Shown: in pieces, positions 10,335 through 27,427 of the stretch
Numbering within the stretch: position 1 is the stretch's first letter
Layout: the number at the start of each line of letters is the position of its first letter
Assembly (NCBI RefSeq): GCF_009601705.1
Contig: NZ_CP045687.1
Span: 1,152,630 to 1,216,629, forward strand
Length of the DNA: 64,000 nt
DNA from: Sulfolobus sp. E5-1-F
GTDB lineage: Archaea > Thermoproteota > Thermoprotei_A > Sulfolobales > Sulfolobaceae
Direction of reading: 5' to 3'
Notes under the pieces: generated by a model
Databases searched by the model: none
Seen by the model: only the letters and a program-made list of their open reading frames with translations
What the model was told of the DNA's origin: nothing
Position numbers and translations under genes: made by a program

Positions 10335-10655
<321 letters not shown>

Positions 10656-15589: not shown

Positions 15590-16396
15590 TCAGCTTGATG
15601 GATATATTATTTCTATTCCCATATCTTTAGCCATTGCTTTAACTCTCTCAGGGTATCTATCATGGACAAAGGGTGTTATAACGTAAACTAAATTTACTTT
15701 AACATTCTTAACCTTTTCATACAGCTCTTTCTTCTTCTTTATTACTGGCAAGTCTCCTCTTTTTATAGAGGAAGTGATCTCAACCAATATAACATTTCCG
15801 TCCTTAATCACGATATCATATTCAACATCAGAAGGTTCATCATAAACATATCCATTCTTATCATAAAGCACTTCCCTAGAGATCTTCCAGCCACTACTAC
15901 TTAAAAGCTCGCTAATTCCTTGTCTAAAGGCGTCCTCATTCATAATTCCCCATCTAGCTCCAAGAGCCGTAACAATATTTTCTAACCTCTTTAAGTCCTC
16001 TTTCGTAGCCATCGCCTTTAGATCCTCCTTTGTAGCCATCACGCTCTTAATTTCCTCCACAGCCCTATCCAGCCTATCAACGTCTTGCTTCGTAGCCATC
16101 GATTTTAAGTCCTCTTTCGTAGCCATCGCCTTTAGATCCTCCTTTGTAGCCATCACGCTCTTAATTTCCTCCACAGCCCTATCCAGCCTATCAACGTCTT
16201 GCTTCGTAGCCATCACGCTCTTAATTTCATTAATATCCTTTTCTAGACTCTTTAAGTCCTCTTTCGTAGCTAAGCTTTGCCATGGAGTTATTTTAGCTAA
16301 AACCTGATATATTATCTCTGGTTTAGCAGTTAGAACGTCCACTAATATCGATGGATTATTGAGCAATACTTTTTTAATTTCTTCTTCTAGGCTCAC
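15590..16396 (-). CDS. DUF3782-type protein with internal repeats and nuclease-like C terminus
   Basis: A 268-residue protein in three parts. Residues 1-40 are a helical lead. Residues 40-140 are near-identical repeated helices built from ATKEDLK, ATKQDVDRLDRAVEEIKSVM units, probably a coiled coil. Residues 145-268 resemble a PD-(D/E)XK fold (VEYDIVI, then VILVEITSS). The usual Lys of the E-x-K motif is Thr here (EITSS), so nuclease activity is doubtful unless a nearby Lys substitutes. DUF3782 proteins are common in Sulfolobales and of unknown role. It lies inside the 52-bp repeat-bracketed island. Confidence 0.75.
   Translation of the reverse strand: MSLEEEIKKVLLNNPSILVDVLTAKPEIIYQVLAKITPWQSLATKEDLKSLEKDINEIKSVMATKQDVDRLDRAVEEIKSVMATKEDLKAMATKEDLKSMATKQDVDRLDRAVEEIKSVMATKEDLKAMATKEDLKRLENIVTALGARWGIMNEDAFRQGISELLSSSGWKISREVLYDKNGYVYDEPSDVEYDIVIKDGNVILVEITSSIKRGDLPVIKKKKELYEKVKNVKVNLVYVITPFVHDRYPERVKAMAKDMGIEIIYPSS
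15992..16214 (-). repeat. Tandem 114-bp internal repeat in the DUF3782 gene
   Basis: Bases 15992-16100 recur exactly at 16106-16214, a period of 114 bp or 38 codons, so the reading frame is kept. Shorter related 7-residue units (ATKEDLK) flank it. The near-perfect DNA identity points to a recent duplication and to a coil length that can change by recombination. Confidence 0.9.
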
Positions 16397-17951: not shown

Positions 17952-18755
17952 TCATTTACCCTTAAATACTGGTTTTCTTTTTTCAAAGAAAGCTCTAGAT
18001 CCCTCCTTAGCATCTTCTGAGGCTAAAGCTTGATTTTGCATTTCCCTCTCTAAAGCAAACGCATTATACAAAGGCAAATCCATTCCTTCGTTCACTGCTA
18101 GTTTTGCAAATCCTATAGCTAATGATGGGCCTTTAGCTACTTGCTTCGCAAACTCAAAGGATTCCTCGAATAGTTTCTCCGGTTCTACTAATCTATCTAG
18201 TATTCCGAGTTCGTATGCCTCCTTAGGAGAGAGCGTCTTTCCGGTCACCATTAAGTATATTGCCTTAGACCTACCCAACAACCTTGCTAAAAATTGTGTT
18301 CCACCCTCTCCTGGTATTAGAGCTAAGTTAGCTACTTCCGGCATACCAAACTTTATATTTTCATCGTTAGCTCCAAATCTTAAATCACAAGCTAGCGCAA
18401 GTTCCAACCCGCCTCCCATACAATGCCCGTTTATACTTGCGATAATTAATTTTTTCGTAGACATCATCCTGAGCATAACCTCTTTACTGAACTGACTCGA
18501 TAAGCCAATATACTCCGGCGACTTGTCCTTTATTTCATTTATATCAAATCCCGCGGAGAAGAACCTAGGAATATTGCTAGTTATAACTATGGCTTTAACG
18601 CTCTGGTCAAATCTAGACTCAACTATTATGTTATCTAATTCTCTCAACATCTCAAGGTTATGTGCATTTGCTGGAGGTCTGTTTAGCTTAATAATTCCTA
18701 CTCCATCTTCGACTTCTATTTTGAAGTACTTTGGGCTTAACTCATTCAAACCCAT
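17952..18755 (-). CDS. Enoyl-CoA hydratase/isomerase family protein
   Basis: Crotonase-fold enzyme acting on CoA thioesters. Visible family features are FSAGFDINEI (oxyanion-hole strand), NGHCMGGGLELALACD, and MPEVANLALIPGEGGTQ with the conserved acidic residue. The start is taken as ATG 18755 because GGTGAG precedes it; a GTG at 18764 is possible. It follows the PaaA-like gene by about 9 bp on the same strand, so it probably acts in the same aromatic CoA pathway, either in ring opening/isomerisation (as PaaG/PaaF) or in later beta-oxidation. Confidence 0.88.
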   Translation of the reverse strand: MGLNELSPKYFKIEVEDGVGIIKLNRPPANAHNLEMLRELDNIIVESRFDQSVKAIVITSNIPRFFSAGFDINEIKDKSPEYIGLSSQFSKEVMLRMMSTKKLIIASINGHCMGGGLELALACDLRFGANDENIKFGMPEVANLALIPGEGGTQFLARLLGRSKAIYLMVTGKTLSPKEAYELGILDRLVEPEKLFEESFEFAKQVAKGPSLAIGFAKLAVNEGMDLPLYNAFALEREMQNQALASEDAKEGSRAFFEKRKPVFKGK

Positions 18756-18764
18756 CAGTCTCAC

Positions 18765-19535
18765 CTAGAAAACTCTTCTATTCCTATTTGTATCCGGTAA
18801 CTCTAGGCCTAGAGGAGTGACTAATTCTCTAACATCTTTAATGTATAGTTCCCTCATTTCATCATTTTTCATCTTCTTTATCCCATACTTATAAGCCAAA
18901 TCTATCGTAATCGACTTAGAGTGGCCAAACATGTCCAAGCCTCTAGGGAACCACTTATTTATTAATGCTTGTGCTAATTCCTTCTTTCCTTCCTCAACTA
19001 GTTTCTTAATACCAGTATATCCAAAGTTGATATGAAATTCCTCCTCCATAAGCATTGTAGGGATTATTCTAGATAAGGGACCAAAACTAGAATCCTCAAA
19101 GGCTAGTAACTGGTATAATCCTACTCTATCTATTAAAAAGGTAAAGCCTAGAGTATCTTCCCACATATTGAATGGAATATTAAACGCATCAAGCTTGTGT
19201 TTGCCCATTCGCCTAGATAGTAGATCTTCAGCTATTTTCTTTCCCTCCTCACCGAACTCCTTTAATATCTGAATTACTTGCCACCCATGTCTCATTTCAT
19301 CTACCATGATTCTTGAGATCGTTACCCTATCAGATAATTTAGGTGCGTGAATTAACCAAGGCATATGTTGTTCTATTGACGCAAATTCCGTATCTCCTTG
19401 AACGGTCAATAGCTTCAACAAGACTTCAACTCCTTCTGGTGGTAAATCGTAAATTGACTCAAACTTCCTTAATCCCTTATACTCTCCCCATCCAATTACT
19501 CTTTTAGGCTTTTTGTACTCTATGACAGTCATCAT
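18765..19535 (-). CDS. PaaA/BoxB-like diiron oxygenase subunit
   Basis: A 256-residue ferritin-like protein related to phenylacetyl-CoA epoxidase PaaA/PaaC. Diiron ligand candidates are complete: E50 or E55 in TEFASIEQH, E80-x2-H83 (DEMRHGWQ), the acidic WEDTLGF near 126, and E165-x2-H168 (EEEFH). It is divergent from a second protein of the same fold (19637), as if the two form an A/C heteromer. No PaaB, PaaD or PaaE gene is in the window, so the electron donor is unknown. A TATA box (19556-19564) gives a leaderless mRNA and abuts the 22-bp palindrome. The substrate is inferred to be an aromatic acyl-CoA. Confidence 0.75.
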   Translation of the reverse strand: MMTVIEYKKPKRVIGWGEYKGLRKFESIYDLPPEGVEVLLKLLTVQGDTEFASIEQHMPWLIHAPKLSDRVTISRIMVDEMRHGWQVIQILKEFGEEGKKIAEDLLSRRMGKHKLDAFNIPFNMWEDTLGFTFLIDRVGLYQLLAFEDSSFGPLSRIIPTMLMEEEFHINFGYTGIKKLVEEGKKELAQALINKWFPRGLDMFGHSKSITIDLAYKYGIKKMKNDEMRELYIKDVRELVTPLGLELPDTNRNRRVF

Positions 19536-19565
19536 TATAATACTTCTACTTGAAAGTATATAACG

Positions 19566-19587
19566 TTTTCTATCCGTAGATAGAAAA
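19566..19587. promoter_or_regulatory. 22-bp perfect-arm palindrome, likely PaaX-type operator
   Basis: TTTTCTATC-CGTA-GATAGAAAA has 9-bp perfect arms. It lies in the 101-bp gap between the two divergent diiron genes, touching the TATA box of the left gene and just upstream of the promoter of the right. A bound repressor would block both. The PaaX-like regulator at 22118 is the natural candidate, by context only. Confidence 0.6.
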
Positions 19588-19636
19588 AAGCGAAAAACAT
19601 AAAAGTTTCTAAAAATTAGATACTTAATGAGCTCCT

Positions 19637-20341
19637 ATGCAAAAATTTAGTAGCATAAAGGAACTATCACTAGATCTAAAGAACACCTTAATAGATATAA
19701 TAGCGTTGAGGGCGGACTTTGAATTAGCTATGGTAGAACAAATTTCACCTTGGTTAGTGAATGCACCAACAGTAGATGATAGGTTATTTTCAGCTAAGGT
19801 AGTTTCAGATGAACTTAATCACGGCTGGCAATTAGTGAGATTATTGGAAGAGTTTAACGTTAAGGATAAACTAGCGAAAATCGTAGATGCGAGATTGGGA
19901 ATTCACATGTTAGAGGTTTCCAATTTACCTTTATTTAACTGGGAAGATGTAATAGCGTTTGTATTTCTGGTAGATAGGGCCGGATTGTATCAGTTGAGAG
20001 CAATTAAAGACTGCTCATTTGAACCATTAGCAAATTTAGCCTCTAGCATGATTAAGGAGGAAGAGAGCCATTTATTTTACTCTGAGAACGTATTAAAAGC
20101 TTATCAGAATAGGAATAGAGTACAAGCTGCGCTTAACTTCTGGTTCCCTAGAGCTTTAGAGATGCTGTATAGAGCGAAATCCCTAAATGAGGCTCATCTT
20201 AGAGATCTTAATATTTCCGAATTAACAAATGATAAACTCATTGAGGAGTATGTAAGCTCAATTAATGAAGAAATAAGGAAGCTTGGATATACTGAAATAG
20301 ACTACGATAAAAATCTCCGTTATAATATTGTACTAAAGTAA
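19637..20341 (+). CDS. PaaC-like diiron protein, partner of the divergent PaaA-like gene
   Basis: A 234-residue ferritin-like protein with the same motif order as its divergent neighbour: E29 or E34 (FELAMVEQ), E59-x2-H62 (DELNHGWQ), E103 (NWEDVIAF) and E142-x2-H145 (EEESH). In bacterial PaaABCDE, PaaC is the structural partner of catalytic PaaA; here both proteins keep a full ligand set, so which is catalytic is open. It is followed after 69 bp by the benzoate-type CoA ligase. The phenylacetyl/benzoyl-CoA substrate is inferred from that neighbour. Confidence 0.75.
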   Translation: MQKFSSIKELSLDLKNTLIDIIALRADFELAMVEQISPWLVNAPTVDDRLFSAKVVSDELNHGWQLVRLLEEFNVKDKLAKIVDARLGIHMLEVSNLPLFNWEDVIAFVFLVDRAGLYQLRAIKDCSFEPLANLASSMIKEEESHLFYSENVLKAYQNRNRVQAALNFWFPRALEMLYRAKSLNEAHLRDLNISELTNDKLIEEYVSSINEEIRKLGYTEIDYDKNLRYNIVLK

Positions 20342-20377
20342 ATTGCGAGATTTTTACGTACTATATAAACTGCGTTA

Positions 20378-20387
20378 ACTATATAAA
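20378..20387 (+). promoter_or_regulatory. TATA box of the aromatic CoA ligase gene, with an upstream copy
   Basis: ACTATATAAA is centred about 27 bp before the ATG at 20411, so the transcript should be leaderless. The same ten bases occur at 20360-20369, an 18-bp direct repeat that could be a second promoter or a regulator site. Confidence 0.5.
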
Positions 20388-20410
20388 TTGGTTTTTAAAA
20401 TTAAATAATA

Positions 20411-22006
20411 ATGGCTACAAGATATGGCAGATTTTTAAACATAACTGATGCTTTATTCTCGAAATGGGATAATAGCGAGGCAAATAAGAGGATAGCAATT
20501 TATTATAAAGACGAAATTTGGTCATATCGCAAGGTAATAGAGGAAATAAACAAAGTAGGGAATGTTCTAAAGGAATTAGGAGTAGAGAAAGAAAATAGAA
20601 TATTGATGATAGCGTATGATACCCCTTTCTTCATATCGATTTTCTATGGTGCGATGAAAATTGGTGCAATCCCAGTACCAGTTAATACGTATCTGAAACC
20701 AGAAGAGTATCTTTTCCTATTAGAGGATACCGGAGCTAAGGTATTAGCAATCGAACCCGACATTTGGACTAAGTTAGCCCCATATCTTAAAGGTAGAGCT
20801 GATAGACTTAAACATGTAATTATTTTACCAGGTATATCCGAAGCACAAAAAATCACTTTGGAAAATCACGATCACAAAGCAGAGTTAGCATTTTATTATG
20901 GGCTTGTTTCAACAGCCTCTACTCATCTAGAACCTGAAAAGACTTCACCAAACGATATGGCATTTTGGCTCTATACGTCCGGAACTACAGGGCATCCTAA
21001 AGCAGCAGTTCACTTGCATAAAGATATATTAGTCGTTCTCGATACCTATGTGAAGAATATTCTCCAAATCAATGAAAAAGATAGACTATTCAGTGCGTCT
21101 AAACTGTTCTTCGCATATGGGCTAGGAAATGGATCCTATTTCGCCTTTGGTAATGGTGCTTCGACCGTTCTAATGCCAGATAGAGTTGAACCCAGAAAGG
21201 TATTGGAAACTATACATAAATATAAACCGACTATCTTCTTTGGAGTGCCTACTTTGTATAACGCAATCCTTCATGTAAAGGATTGGGAGAATTACGACTT
21301 AACTAGTTTAAGATTTTGTGTTTCTGCTGGAGAACCCTTACCCCCATTAATATATATTAAATGGAAAGAGAGATATGGTGTAGAAATTCTGGACGGCATC
21401 GGTTCCACTGAGGCTCTTCACATATACATCTCTAACGTTCCAGGTAATTCTAAGCCCGGCTGTACTGGGAAGCCAGTCCCGGGGTATGAAGTTAAAATAG
21501 TGGATGAAAACGGCAATGAGGTTCCACCTAAAACGGTTGGAGATCTTTACGTAAAAGGAGATAGTGTAGCAATGTTCTATTGGAACGATTACGAAAGTAC
21601 TAGAAAGAACATGGTCGGATTTTGGTTTAGAACTGGAGATAAGTTTTACAGAGATGAAGAGGGGTATTATTACTATGTTGGAAGGTCAGACGATATGATT
21701 AAGACTTCTGGGTTATGGGTTTCCCCAATAGAAGTGGAAGCAGCACTTTTAACACATCCAGCTGTTCTAGAAGCTGCAGTCGTAGGTATTCCAGATGAAG
21801 TGGGACTAGTAAGAGTGATTGGGTTTGTCACGTTAAAACCAGGATATTTGCCTAGTAGTGAATTAGCCGAGGAAATAAGGAATTATCTTAGGGAAAAATT
21901 AGACCATTATAAGGTTCCTAAAGAAATAAGGTTTGTTAATGAAATTCCTAAGACTGCAACTGGTAAGATACAACGATATAAGTTTAGAATAGGGGAGATC
22001 AAGTAA
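20411..22006 (+). CDS. Benzoate-CoA ligase-like AMP-forming enzyme
   Basis: A 531-residue ANL-superfamily ligase activating a carboxylic acid to its CoA thioester with ATP. Motifs: YTSGTTGHPK (P-loop-like), GIGSTEALHIYISN (adenylate contact), RTGDKF and the C-terminal Lys in PKTATGKIQR. The stretches GHPKAAVHLHKD and SAGEPLPPLIYIKW with DGIGSTE resemble benzoate/4-hydroxybenzoate-CoA ligases more than acetyl-CoA synthetases. Placement between the diiron genes and a PaaX-like regulator supports an aromatic substrate. Whether benzoate, phenylacetate or a hydroxy-derivative cannot be said. Confidence 0.83.
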   Translation: MATRYGRFLNITDALFSKWDNSEANKRIAIYYKDEIWSYRKVIEEINKVGNVLKELGVEKENRILMIAYDTPFFISIFYGAMKIGAIPVPVNTYLKPEEYLFLLEDTGAKVLAIEPDIWTKLAPYLKGRADRLKHVIILPGISEAQKITLENHDHKAELAFYYGLVSTASTHLEPEKTSPNDMAFWLYTSGTTGHPKAAVHLHKDILVVLDTYVKNILQINEKDRLFSASKLFFAYGLGNGSYFAFGNGASTVLMPDRVEPRKVLETIHKYKPTIFFGVPTLYNAILHVKDWENYDLTSLRFCVSAGEPLPPLIYIKWKERYGVEILDGIGSTEALHIYISNVPGNSKPGCTGKPVPGYEVKIVDENGNEVPPKTVGDLYVKGDSVAMFYWNDYESTRKNMVGFWFRTGDKFYRDEEGYYYYVGRSDDMIKTSGLWVSPIEVEAALLTHPAVLEAAVVGIPDEVGLVRVIGFVTLKPGYLPSSELAEEIRNYLREKLDHYKVPKEIRFVNEIPKTATGKIQRYKFRIGEIK

Positions 22007-22117
22007 TTTATAAAAATGAATTAAAACTAAAACCCTCTATAAAGAAGTAAATGAAGTTTTATAGCACTTGCTGTAACTAAGAAAATTTTTTAGTATTAAT
22101 CTAAAAGGTTATTATTA

Positions 22118-22918
22118 ATGAAGATACAGTCATTGTTCTTTACACTCTATGGAGATTATGTGAAGGATTCTGGAGGAACAATAAGTTCTAAAAGTTTAAT
22201 CGTAATCTTTAAGGAATTCGGATTTTCCGAAGGAGCGATAAGAGCAGGATTATATAGAATGAAGAAAGCTGGACTCATAGTAGGAATAAGAAGAGAAAAT
22301 AAGAAAATTAGCTATAAATTATCTGAGAAAGGTATGGTAAGATTATTGGAAGGAACTAAGAGAGTTTATGAAAAGGTAAGAAGAAAGTGGGATAATAGGT
22401 GGAGAATAGTAGTATATAATATTCCAGAGACCAATAGGGAACTAAGAGATAGGTTAAGGAGAGAGCTGAGGTGGCTTGGATTTGGCATGCTAGCACAATC
22501 AACGTGGATCTCACCAAACCCAATTGAAGATACATTAAAGAATTTCATCAACGATAATTATATTTCATCTAATGGCATACAAATAGACATTTTTGTTGCG
22601 AATTATCTAGGAGAACCTAAACGGTTAGTGGAAAAGTGTTGGAATTTATCTGAAGTTGAACAAGCTTATAAAGCGTTCTTAGAGAAATGGACTGGAGTCC
22701 TCGAAAAGGTAGGTAGTCTAAAAAGTAATGAGGCGTTCGTAACGAGGATACTACTTGTTCACGAATACAGAAAATTTCTGAACATAGATCCAGATTTACC
22801 GGAGGATTTATTACCTCAGAACTGGATAGGATACAAAGCATATGAGTTATTTATGAAGTTAAGGGAGGAACTTACTCCTAAGGCTAATGAGTTCTTCTAT
22901 AAGGTTTATGAACCATAA
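22118..22918 (+). CDS. paaX: PaaX-family transcriptional regulator
   Basis: A 266-residue regulator of the PaaX family, which in bacteria represses phenylacetate genes and is released by phenylacetyl-CoA. The N-terminal winged helix includes SEGAIRAGLYRMKKAGLI, the PaaX recognition region. The central domain has NRWRIVVYNIPETNRELRD and RRELRWLGFGMLAQSTWISP, both typical. The C-terminal helical domain is present, so the length is full. It follows the CoA ligase by 111 bp and probably regulates this cluster through the palindrome at 19566-19587, with an acyl-CoA as inducer. Confidence 0.88.
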   Translation: MKIQSLFFTLYGDYVKDSGGTISSKSLIVIFKEFGFSEGAIRAGLYRMKKAGLIVGIRRENKKISYKLSEKGMVRLLEGTKRVYEKVRRKWDNRWRIVVYNIPETNRELRDRLRRELRWLGFGMLAQSTWISPNPIEDTLKNFINDNYISSNGIQIDIFVANYLGEPKRLVEKCWNLSEVEQAYKAFLEKWTGVLEKVGSLKSNEAFVTRILLVHEYRKFLNIDPDLPEDLLPQNWIGYKAYELFMKLREELTPKANEFFYKVYEP

Positions 22919-25759: not shown

Positions 25760-27427
25760 ATGGATTTATCGAAGTTACTAGAACCAATAAGAGTTGGCGA
25801 TGTTATTTTAAAGAACAGAATAGCCATGTCTCCAATGATTAGTAATTTAGGTACGCCAGAGGGCTATCCCAGTGATGCTCATATAGCCTACTTAGCTGAG
25901 AGAGCTAAGGGAGAAGTTGGATTAATAATAACGGAATATACATACGTTAATCATATAGACGCTAGAGGATCAGTTAACGAACTGGGAATGTACTCAGATG
26001 AGTTAACGCCAAAGTTCATGAGGTTAACTGAGTTAATTCACGCTTTGGGAAGTAAGATTTTCGTACAATTAGTTCACGTTGGTAGGAAGACTAGGAAGGA
26101 CATAATTTGGGGTAACAAACCTATAGCTCCTTCACCCATTCCTATAATGGACGAAGTAAGGGAGATGACGAAGGAGGATATAGAGAGAGTTAAAAACGAT
26201 TTCATAAACGCAGCGATAAGAGCTAAGAGAGCTGGATTTGATGGAATTGAACTTCACGGAGCTCATGGATATCTATTAGCCCAATTCTTATCACCCGCAA
26301 CAAATAAGAGGAGCGATAAGTATAAAGATGGTGTAAAGTTTGTAGAGGAAATCCTTAAGGGCATAAAGGAGAAGGCTAAAATCACTGTAGGTATAAGGAT
26401 CAGCGTAACCGAATTTGATAATGAGGGTTTAACTCCAGAGATTGTGGCTGAAATAGGTAAAAGGTTAGAAAAGGCCGGAATAGACTACATTCATTTATCA
26501 GCTGGTAGAGATGGTCCTTTAGGTTCTAGTATGCCATATTACTACAAGAGATTAGCATTTCTTGAAGAGGCAAAGATAGTAAGGGATGCAGTTAACATTC
26601 CAATATTTCTCGTTGGATCTATTATAACTCCGGAGGAAGCAATTAAGGCGAGAGAAATTGCTGATGTAGTCGTATTAGGAAGGCAATTGTTAGCTGATCC
26701 CTATTGGCTAGAGAAAGCGAAAAGGGATTTACCAATAAGACCATGCATTAGGTGTAATCAGTCATGTAGAGGGGTTGTATATAAAGAGGTAAGATGCGAT
26801 GTTAACCCAGAATTAGGCTGGGAATTGCTACCACCATTGGAGAAGGGCAAAGGAGAGGTTATCGTTGTGGGAGGAGGTGTAATGGGTTTGGAGGCTGCTA
26901 GAGTTTTAGCTTTAAGGGGCTTTACGGTAACCTTATATGAACAAACTAATAAATTAGGAGGTCAATTCCTACTCTACAAAGATCCGTGGAAAGTTAAAGA
27001 GTTTCAAGAGTTAATTAATTACTATGAGAGGGAATTAAGGAGACTTAATGTAGAGGTAAAGCTTAACTCTAAGATGGAGTGTTCAGACTGTATAATGGCT
27101 ATACCAGATTACGAAATACCTAAAATGCCGGACGTCAAGGGAGAAAAAGTGCTGATAGATTCTAACCTTTACGTTTATCATGACTACGCATTTGAATTGG
27201 CTAAATATAATGAGGTTTACATGACGGAGAGGTCATTCAAAGGATTGGACAGAACTAGGGAATACTTGCTAAGAAAGGAGTTAAGTGAAATTGGCGTGAA
27301 GTTTTTGGAGGATAGAAATAGCATAAAGTTTGACGTGGAAATACATAATATTGTTGATGATCAACCCAGTATAGGTAAGGCTGTACAAAGAGGTTATTGG
27401 TTAGGTAGAACTTTCAAGTCATATTAA
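25760..27427 (+). CDS. Old-yellow-enzyme/2,4-dienoyl-CoA reductase-like flavoprotein
   Basis: FMN-binding TIM barrel of the NADH:flavin oxidoreductase family ([38 protein letters not shown]), followed by a Cys group for [4Fe-4S] (CIRCNQSC, then C about 10 further) and a Rossmann FAD domain ([20 protein letters not shown]). At 555 residues it is about 100 shorter than DCR-type enzymes, and the C-terminal nucleotide domain is condensed. It may reduce enoyl or dienoyl-CoA substrates or work as an electron-transferring flavoprotein. It is monocistronic with a TATA-like CTTTTTAACT about 26 bp upstream. Confidence 0.83.

Follow-up and report, generated by a model that had tools for sequence, protein, structure and literature searches.

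A probable Box-like, two-subunit aromatic acyl-CoA epoxidation module with an independent paralogous partner in Sulfolobaceae

The two described systems closest to the locus analysed here are BoxB/BoxA/BoxC of Azoarcus/Aromatoleum evansii and Burkholderia, and PaaABCE. In the crystal structure of BoxB, Gln116, which adjoins the iron ligand Glu120, hydrogen-bonds benzoyl-CoA, and Thr119, Ser123, Phe193, Phe203/Phe206 and Thr210 also place this substrate (PMC5489048). A lysine bridge, Lys68-Glu49, has been described for PaaA, and BoxC, which has two glutamates in the PaaF positions, co-purifies with BoxB (PMC4498308). As far as archaea are concerned, a survey from 2026 on the phenylacetate pathway gives cases only in Halobacteria, and the part of it available to us mentions neither Sulfolobus-type genera nor BoxB (PMC13186573). 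The literature searched, of which only partial text was available so that this is weak evidence, likewise holds no mention of an archaeal BoxB or of a protein pair of the kind described below, and no paper in it was found to name the Sulfolobus solfataricus protein SSO1313; the accessible text of a phenol-growth paper on that species contains nothing on ring oxidation, paa or SSO1313.

The locus lies in the complete 2.54 Mb genome of Sulfolobus sp. E5-1-F, within what we call the window, i.e. the whole stretch of 64,000 nucleotides that was analysed, and comprises genes for a crotonase-fold enzyme, two diiron proteins designated A and C, an aryl-CoA ligase and a PaaX-type regulator (Table 1). 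A preliminary description of the sequence had presented these five genes as one compact unit. All five reading frames, their positions and their families were borne out, and the unit is kept across the genus, with the correction that there are two divergent units and not one, since the crotonase and A are encoded leftward and C, the ligase and the PaaX-type gene rightward. The naming of a benzoate-type CoA ligase and of a PaaX-type repressor in the same description also holds, the former passing TIGR02262 and the latter having N-terminal, central and C-terminal PaaX domains that all exceed their Pfam cut-offs. The crotonase reading frame opens with a GTG at 18764, the conserved start probably being the ATG at 18755.

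Table 1. Features of the locus (positions in the window)
Feature	Position	Strand	Length and basis
Crotonase-fold enzyme, proposed ring-opening BoxC-like partner	17952..18764	-	269-270 aa; ECH_1 190.8 bits
Diiron protein A, BoxB-like, proposed catalytic epoxidase subunit	18765..19535	-	256 aa; PF05138, residues, model, tree
Divergent promoter region between A and C	19536..19636	.	101 bp; genus alignment
Conserved block TAACGTTTTCTRTMCGT, candidate operator of the PaaX-type regulator	19561..19577	+	genus comparison
Diiron protein C, paralogue of A, proposed structural partner	19637..20341	+	234 aa; SSO1313 (PDB 4mud) orthologue
Aryl-CoA ligase, benzoate-CoA ligase family	20411..22006	+	531 aa; TIGR02262 528 bits, subfamily cut-off 375.25
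PaaX-type repressor	22118..22918	+	266 aa; PaaX, PaaX_M, PaaX_C over Pfam cut-offs

The five genes are found together in all six genus relatives, which places the grouping far beyond chance, and one of these relatives (G015, loci L029 and L028) carries two full copies of the module at distant sites. The ligase of genome G014 (L027:8967-10560) is divided into two overlapping reading frames, likely by a frameshift or a sequencing error. The closest relatives of the host and the match to 4mud suggest a position within Sulfolobales in or near Saccharolobus. In a second genus of the family, probably Sulfolobus and represented by two genomes, the module genes are spread over no more than about 7 kb and their order is altered, and in Metallosphaera yellowstonensis a short degenerate counterpart of C comes after crotonase and A, with the ligase adjoining. 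PF05138, the Pfam family of both diiron proteins, occurs in 6 of 398 sampled genomes of the phylum, all six belonging to the host genus, the second genus or Metallosphaera, and this patchy spread suggests either gain by transfer or wide loss. Elsewhere in the window, 15590-16396 (-) encodes a protein with repeated MATKEDLK/MATKQDVDRL units followed by a distinct C-terminal part, and 25760-27427 (+) an Old-yellow-enzyme-like FMN/FAD oxidoreductase, shorter than the long forms in NCBIfam and with no link to the module.

Both diiron proteins match Pfam PaaA_PaaC (PF05138) well above its cut-off of 28.5 bits, A with 97.7 and C with 86.1 bits, but the PaaA/PaaC-like identity they had been given at the outset does not stand, since the tree and AU tests put both on the BoxB side. 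In the PF05138 tree, which is unrooted and has its Thermus rows on long branches, A, C, BoxB and archaeal and Binatia relatives are split from PaaA and PaaC with a support of 97/91, or 100/99 when the long Paracoccus row is left out; the BoxB-like proteins of marine group II and Binatia are found on the same side as A, and C forms a clade of its own. Grouping A with PaaA is rejected by the AU test (p 2.6e-6), as is grouping C with PaaC (p 8e-4). The BoxB residues and the absent lysine bridge considered below also speak against a PaaA assignment of A, and C is an independent paralogue and not an orthologue of PaaC. The tree gives a clearer answer than the NCBIfam models, which are ambiguous on A: its score is 106.7 bits with TIGR03225 (BoxB) and 91.3 bits with the PaaA model, both far below cut-off (499.1 bits for the TIGR03225 equivalog), and the BoxB match spans profile positions 81-261. 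With 256 residues against about 470 in BoxB, A is without the C-terminal part of the latter. It should also be mentioned that the A proteins of Metallosphaera and Thermoplasmata score slightly to clearly higher with the PaaA model than with the BoxB model.

On alignment, A has all six diiron ligands (E120, E150, H153, D211, E240 and H243 in BoxB), and five of the seven second-shell positions of BoxB are kept (Q116, T119, S123, F193, F206), F203 being changed to T and T210 to I. The lysine bridge of PaaA (K68, E49, E72, D126) is on the other hand absent, with I and H in the columns of K68 and E49. PaaA of E. coli, Haloferax and Paracoccus have the Lys68-Glu49 bridge and only F193 in common with the BoxB set; in the PaaA encoded on a Thermus plasmid T119, S123 and F193 are present and Q116 is absent. 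The predicted model of A (pLDDT 93.4) matches SSO1313 (4mud) with a Z of 29.2, BoxB with 27.8, PaaA with 25.6 and PaaC with 22.7.

Diiron protein C corresponds directly to SSO1313 (E 1.3e-112 against PDB 4mud), and its own predicted model reaches a pLDDT of 92.5. That each of the two proteins has a full ligand set, as first described, is correct, with six of six ligands in A and in C, and the set is complete in C of every genus member with a full-length C. The accompanying notion that two ligand-complete subunits distinguish the system from the bacterial ones is weakened. A second subunit that keeps its ligands is no mark of novelty, since PaaC of Haloferax keeps all six as well (PaaC of E. 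coli and Paracoccus having lost several), and the partner itself has lost ligands outside the host genus: in the counterpart of the Sulfolobus genomes the first ligand Glu is replaced by Lys and a later Glu by Asp, and in that of M. yellowstonensis three ligand positions are lost. The latter protein (L022:7933-8523) is a degenerate form of 196 residues, below Pfam detection and with several iron ligands gone. Furthermore, C is without the BoxB substrate residues except F206, and since Q116, T119, S123 and F193 are replaced in it by R, F, M and S, respectively, C is unlikely to bind the same substrate as A. Judging from the ligands, kept in the genus and partly lost in the Sulfolobus and Metallosphaera counterparts, C is probably a structural partner of A.

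The ligase has the motifs FFAYGLGNG and GIGSTExLHI common to solved benzoate-CoA ligases. By gene order its counterpart in S. solfataricus may be SSO1314, annotated as acetyl-CoA synthetase and, according to a proteomics paper, among the proteins regulated under nickel. The crotonase keeps both catalytic glutamates, which PaaG is without on sequence comparison, and is the best match of the genome to the BoxC model, although its 54.9 bits are far from the cut-off of 712.3. In the crotonase tree, a split with a support of 98/99 sets PaaF-, PaaG- and other hydratases apart from a group made up of the neighbours of A-type or BoxB-like genes (in Sulfolobales, Thermoplasmata, Kariarchaeota and marine group II), BoxC and one Thermus enzyme, the position of BoxC being unsure because of its very long branch of 3.4 changes per column. 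In Kariarchaeota, Thermoplasmata and marine group II, A or a BoxB-like gene has a crotonase gene beside it, and this adjacency is stronger evidence for a shared task than the tree position of BoxC. The crotonase is possibly a one-domain analogue of BoxC.

The preliminary description had further remarked that the partners known from Paa and Box systems are missing from the window, and had suggested a search of the genome for them. Tested family by family over the whole genome, the absence of PaaB, PaaE, BoxA and BoxC extends beyond the window: there is no PF06243 match for PaaB (positive controls being found in Thermus, Deinobacterium and Haloferax), no TIGR02160 match for PaaE, no BoxA match over cut-off, only ferredoxin-like fragments of at best 25 bits, no BoxC match over cut-off, and no PF05138 protein other than A and C. 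The proposal of an aromatic acyl-CoA oxygenase module without known PaaB, PaaE, BoxA and BoxC partners is accordingly supported in a complete genome. As a separate observation, the annotated PaaE on a plasmid of Haloferax larsenii (L201:6562-6732) has 56 residues against about 350 in bacterial PaaE. As regards electron supply, the reading frame at 10335-10649 (-) encodes a single small ferredoxin 7 kb from the module and nothing links it to the latter; a general ferredoxin is a plausible donor.

The PaaX-type regulator scores 220.6 bits with TIGR02277, below the equivalog cut-off of 264.55. In the genus alignment the region between A and C has TATA-like boxes in both directions and, between them, the conserved block TAACGTTTTCTRTMCGT, which occurs once per genome in six genomes of the genus, twice in the genome with two modules and nowhere else in these seven genomes, a reversed-pattern control giving 0 matches. 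This distribution makes the block a candidate operator of the PaaX-type regulator. It is confined to the A-C region and does not occur at the PaaK-like cluster discussed below, so that no sign of co-regulation of that cluster by way of this block was found. Scans for Sigma-70 promoters and terminators stayed below the level of shuffled sequence, as is to be expected in an archaeon.

Judging from the sequences, the locus probably constitutes a module for aromatic acyl-CoA epoxidation that is Box-like and has two subunits. The tree position on the BoxB side, the AU rejections and the BoxB substrate residues of A argue for this, as do the closer match of the A model to BoxB than to PaaA or PaaC, the ligase with its benzoate-CoA ligase score and pocket motifs, and the crotonase, which has two glutamates, is split from the PaaF/PaaG type and lies beside A or BoxB-like genes. 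The same reading is favoured by a partner C that lacks the substrate residues and, in Sulfolobus and M. yellowstonensis, has lost ligands, and by the marine group II clusters, which add an aldehyde dehydrogenase gene and PaaH-, PaaG- and PaaF-like genes, such as a pathway with ring opening would require. Against it stand the low score of A relative to the BoxB cut-off, its missing C-terminal part and the changes at F203 and T210, the occurrence of T119, S123 and F193 in the Thermus plasmid PaaA, the better PaaA-model scores of A from Metallosphaera and Thermoplasmata, the thiolase and PaaK-like ligase genes that follow A in M. yellowstonensis, the long branch of BoxC, which makes its kinship with the crotonase uncertain, and the lack of a recognisable reductase. 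That the module more specifically represents a class of archaeal benzoyl-CoA epoxidases not described before, with a half-length BoxB-like subunit, an independent paralogous partner, a one-domain BoxC analogue and no reductase of its own but a general ferredoxin, is a suggestion we make tentatively.

Setting out from the observed gene content, conservation, partner absence, tree positions and conserved residues, we infer the following for substrate, reaction, the roles of C and the crotonase, regulation and electron donor. The ligase would make benzoyl-CoA or a substituted benzoyl-CoA, and A, BoxB-like without the BoxB C-terminal part, would activate O2 and epoxidise the ring, by analogy with BoxB at the 2,3-position. 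C would be a paralogue that came to serve A in a structural or accessory role, a change parallel to that of bacterial PaaC but independent of it, and the crotonase adjoining A would remove or open the epoxide as BoxC does. Later steps, i.e. aldehyde oxidation and beta-oxidation, would be provided by genes elsewhere, perhaps including the PaaK-like cluster. The PaaX-type protein would repress the divergent A and C promoters until released by acyl-CoA, and the electron donor would be either a general ferredoxin system or a reductase that has escaped recognition.

The cluster in question, at 178.9-183.8 kb of the genome (L133:7920-12756), holds PaaK-like, DUF35, thiolase, PaaF-like, PaaG-like and PaaI-like genes and is one reason to consider instead a Paa-type phenylacetyl-CoA epoxidase reduced to A and C and feeding that cluster. 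The PaaX-like regulator would agree with this, and in M. yellowstonensis, where A lies upstream of thiolase, DUF35, PaaK-like and PaaH-like genes and a benzoate-type ligase is also nearby, the thiolase and PaaK-like ligase after A make phenylacetyl-CoA a possible substrate. A PaaK-like gene is however present not only in every genome of the family with a PF05138 protein but also in 13 of 21 without, and the cluster occurs in many family genomes lacking the diiron pair; its presence is therefore no proof of one pathway with the module and rather indicates independence from A and C. In addition, PaaB and PaaE are absent from the genome, A is excluded from PaaA and C from PaaC, A has BoxB residues and no lysine bridge, and the local ligase is of the benzoate type, all of which makes a reduced Paa system rather unlikely. 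The cluster could nonetheless supply lower-pathway steps, and the module need therefore not be the whole pathway.

The Box-like architecture might also act on a different CoA thioester, such as that of a hydroxy-, amino- or arylacrylic acid. The top-scoring solved match of the ligase is the anthranilate-CoA ligase 4wv3 (444 bits, against 409 for 2v7b), the substrate of a ligase within TIGR02262 is not readable from sequence, and BoxB F203 and T210 are changed in A. We nevertheless find another thioester improbable, since 4wv3 reads FFTFGTGGN where the ligase and benzoate-CoA ligases read FFAYGLGNG, and since Gln116, Thr119, Ser123 and Phe193 of BoxB are all kept in A. The six ligands in C of all genus members with a full-length C could furthermore be taken to mean that both subunits are catalytic in the host genus, each with its own iron centre, instead of forming a catalytic and structural pair. 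This is very improbable, given that C has only F206 of the BoxB substrate residues, that ligands are missing from the corresponding proteins of Sulfolobus and M. yellowstonensis, that Haloferax PaaC keeps six ligands too, and that in comparisons of the same genomes conservation is higher for A than for C (e.g. 88% against 67% identity for G012).

If the Box-like reading is true, thermoacidophilic archaea have a hybrid route for benzoate-type acids, by CoA ester and O2, that is now annotated as phenylacetate degradation. The split into catalytic and structural diiron subunits would then have arisen twice, in parallel, in one enzyme family, with intermediate stages still visible: one genus keeps six ligands, a second is short of one or two, and a third has a degenerate partner. 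The module also provides a setting for the crystal structure 4mud and raises the sharp question of what reduces the iron centre without BoxA or PaaE.

Compared with its relatives, the module resembles the BoxB-like proteins of marine group II and Binatia in the shared Q116, T119, S123 and F193 and, in marine group II, in the adjacent crotonase, but those proteins are longer, about 370-380 residues, and in marine group II an unrelated protein of 186-205 residues follows in place of C. The latter (e.g. L038:8991-9569) has its gene immediately behind that of the BoxB-like protein in most of the marine group II loci compared, at least 57 in number, belongs to no Pfam or NCBIfam family over cut-off, and is possibly a partner or reductase-docking subunit; a 192-residue representative was considered as the BoxB C-terminal part or as C and gave no meaningful match to either. 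PDB 4mud is the structure of a direct orthologue of C, but was deposited only as a phenylacetic-acid-degradation-like protein and without the partner A. With PaaABCE the module shares two related diiron-fold proteins of the same Pfam family, a CoA ligase, a crotonase and a PaaX-type regulator, but here PaaB, PaaE and the lysine bridge are missing, A and C do not group with PaaA and PaaC in the tree, and C is not a PaaC orthologue. With the Box system it shares a ligase of the benzoate-CoA ligase family, a diiron protein in which all six ligands and five substrate-facing residues recur, and a crotonase with two catalytic glutamates alongside. BoxB is however a monomer of about 470 residues with no structural subunit (PMC4498308), where here a 256-residue protein is accompanied by a paralogue of 234; BoxC has about 550 residues and two crotonase-like domains against one here, and BoxA is part of the Box system, with none over cut-off here. 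Since defining features of each system were tested and found to be missing, the module is a member of neither Box nor Paa, but Box-like with an independent partner subunit.
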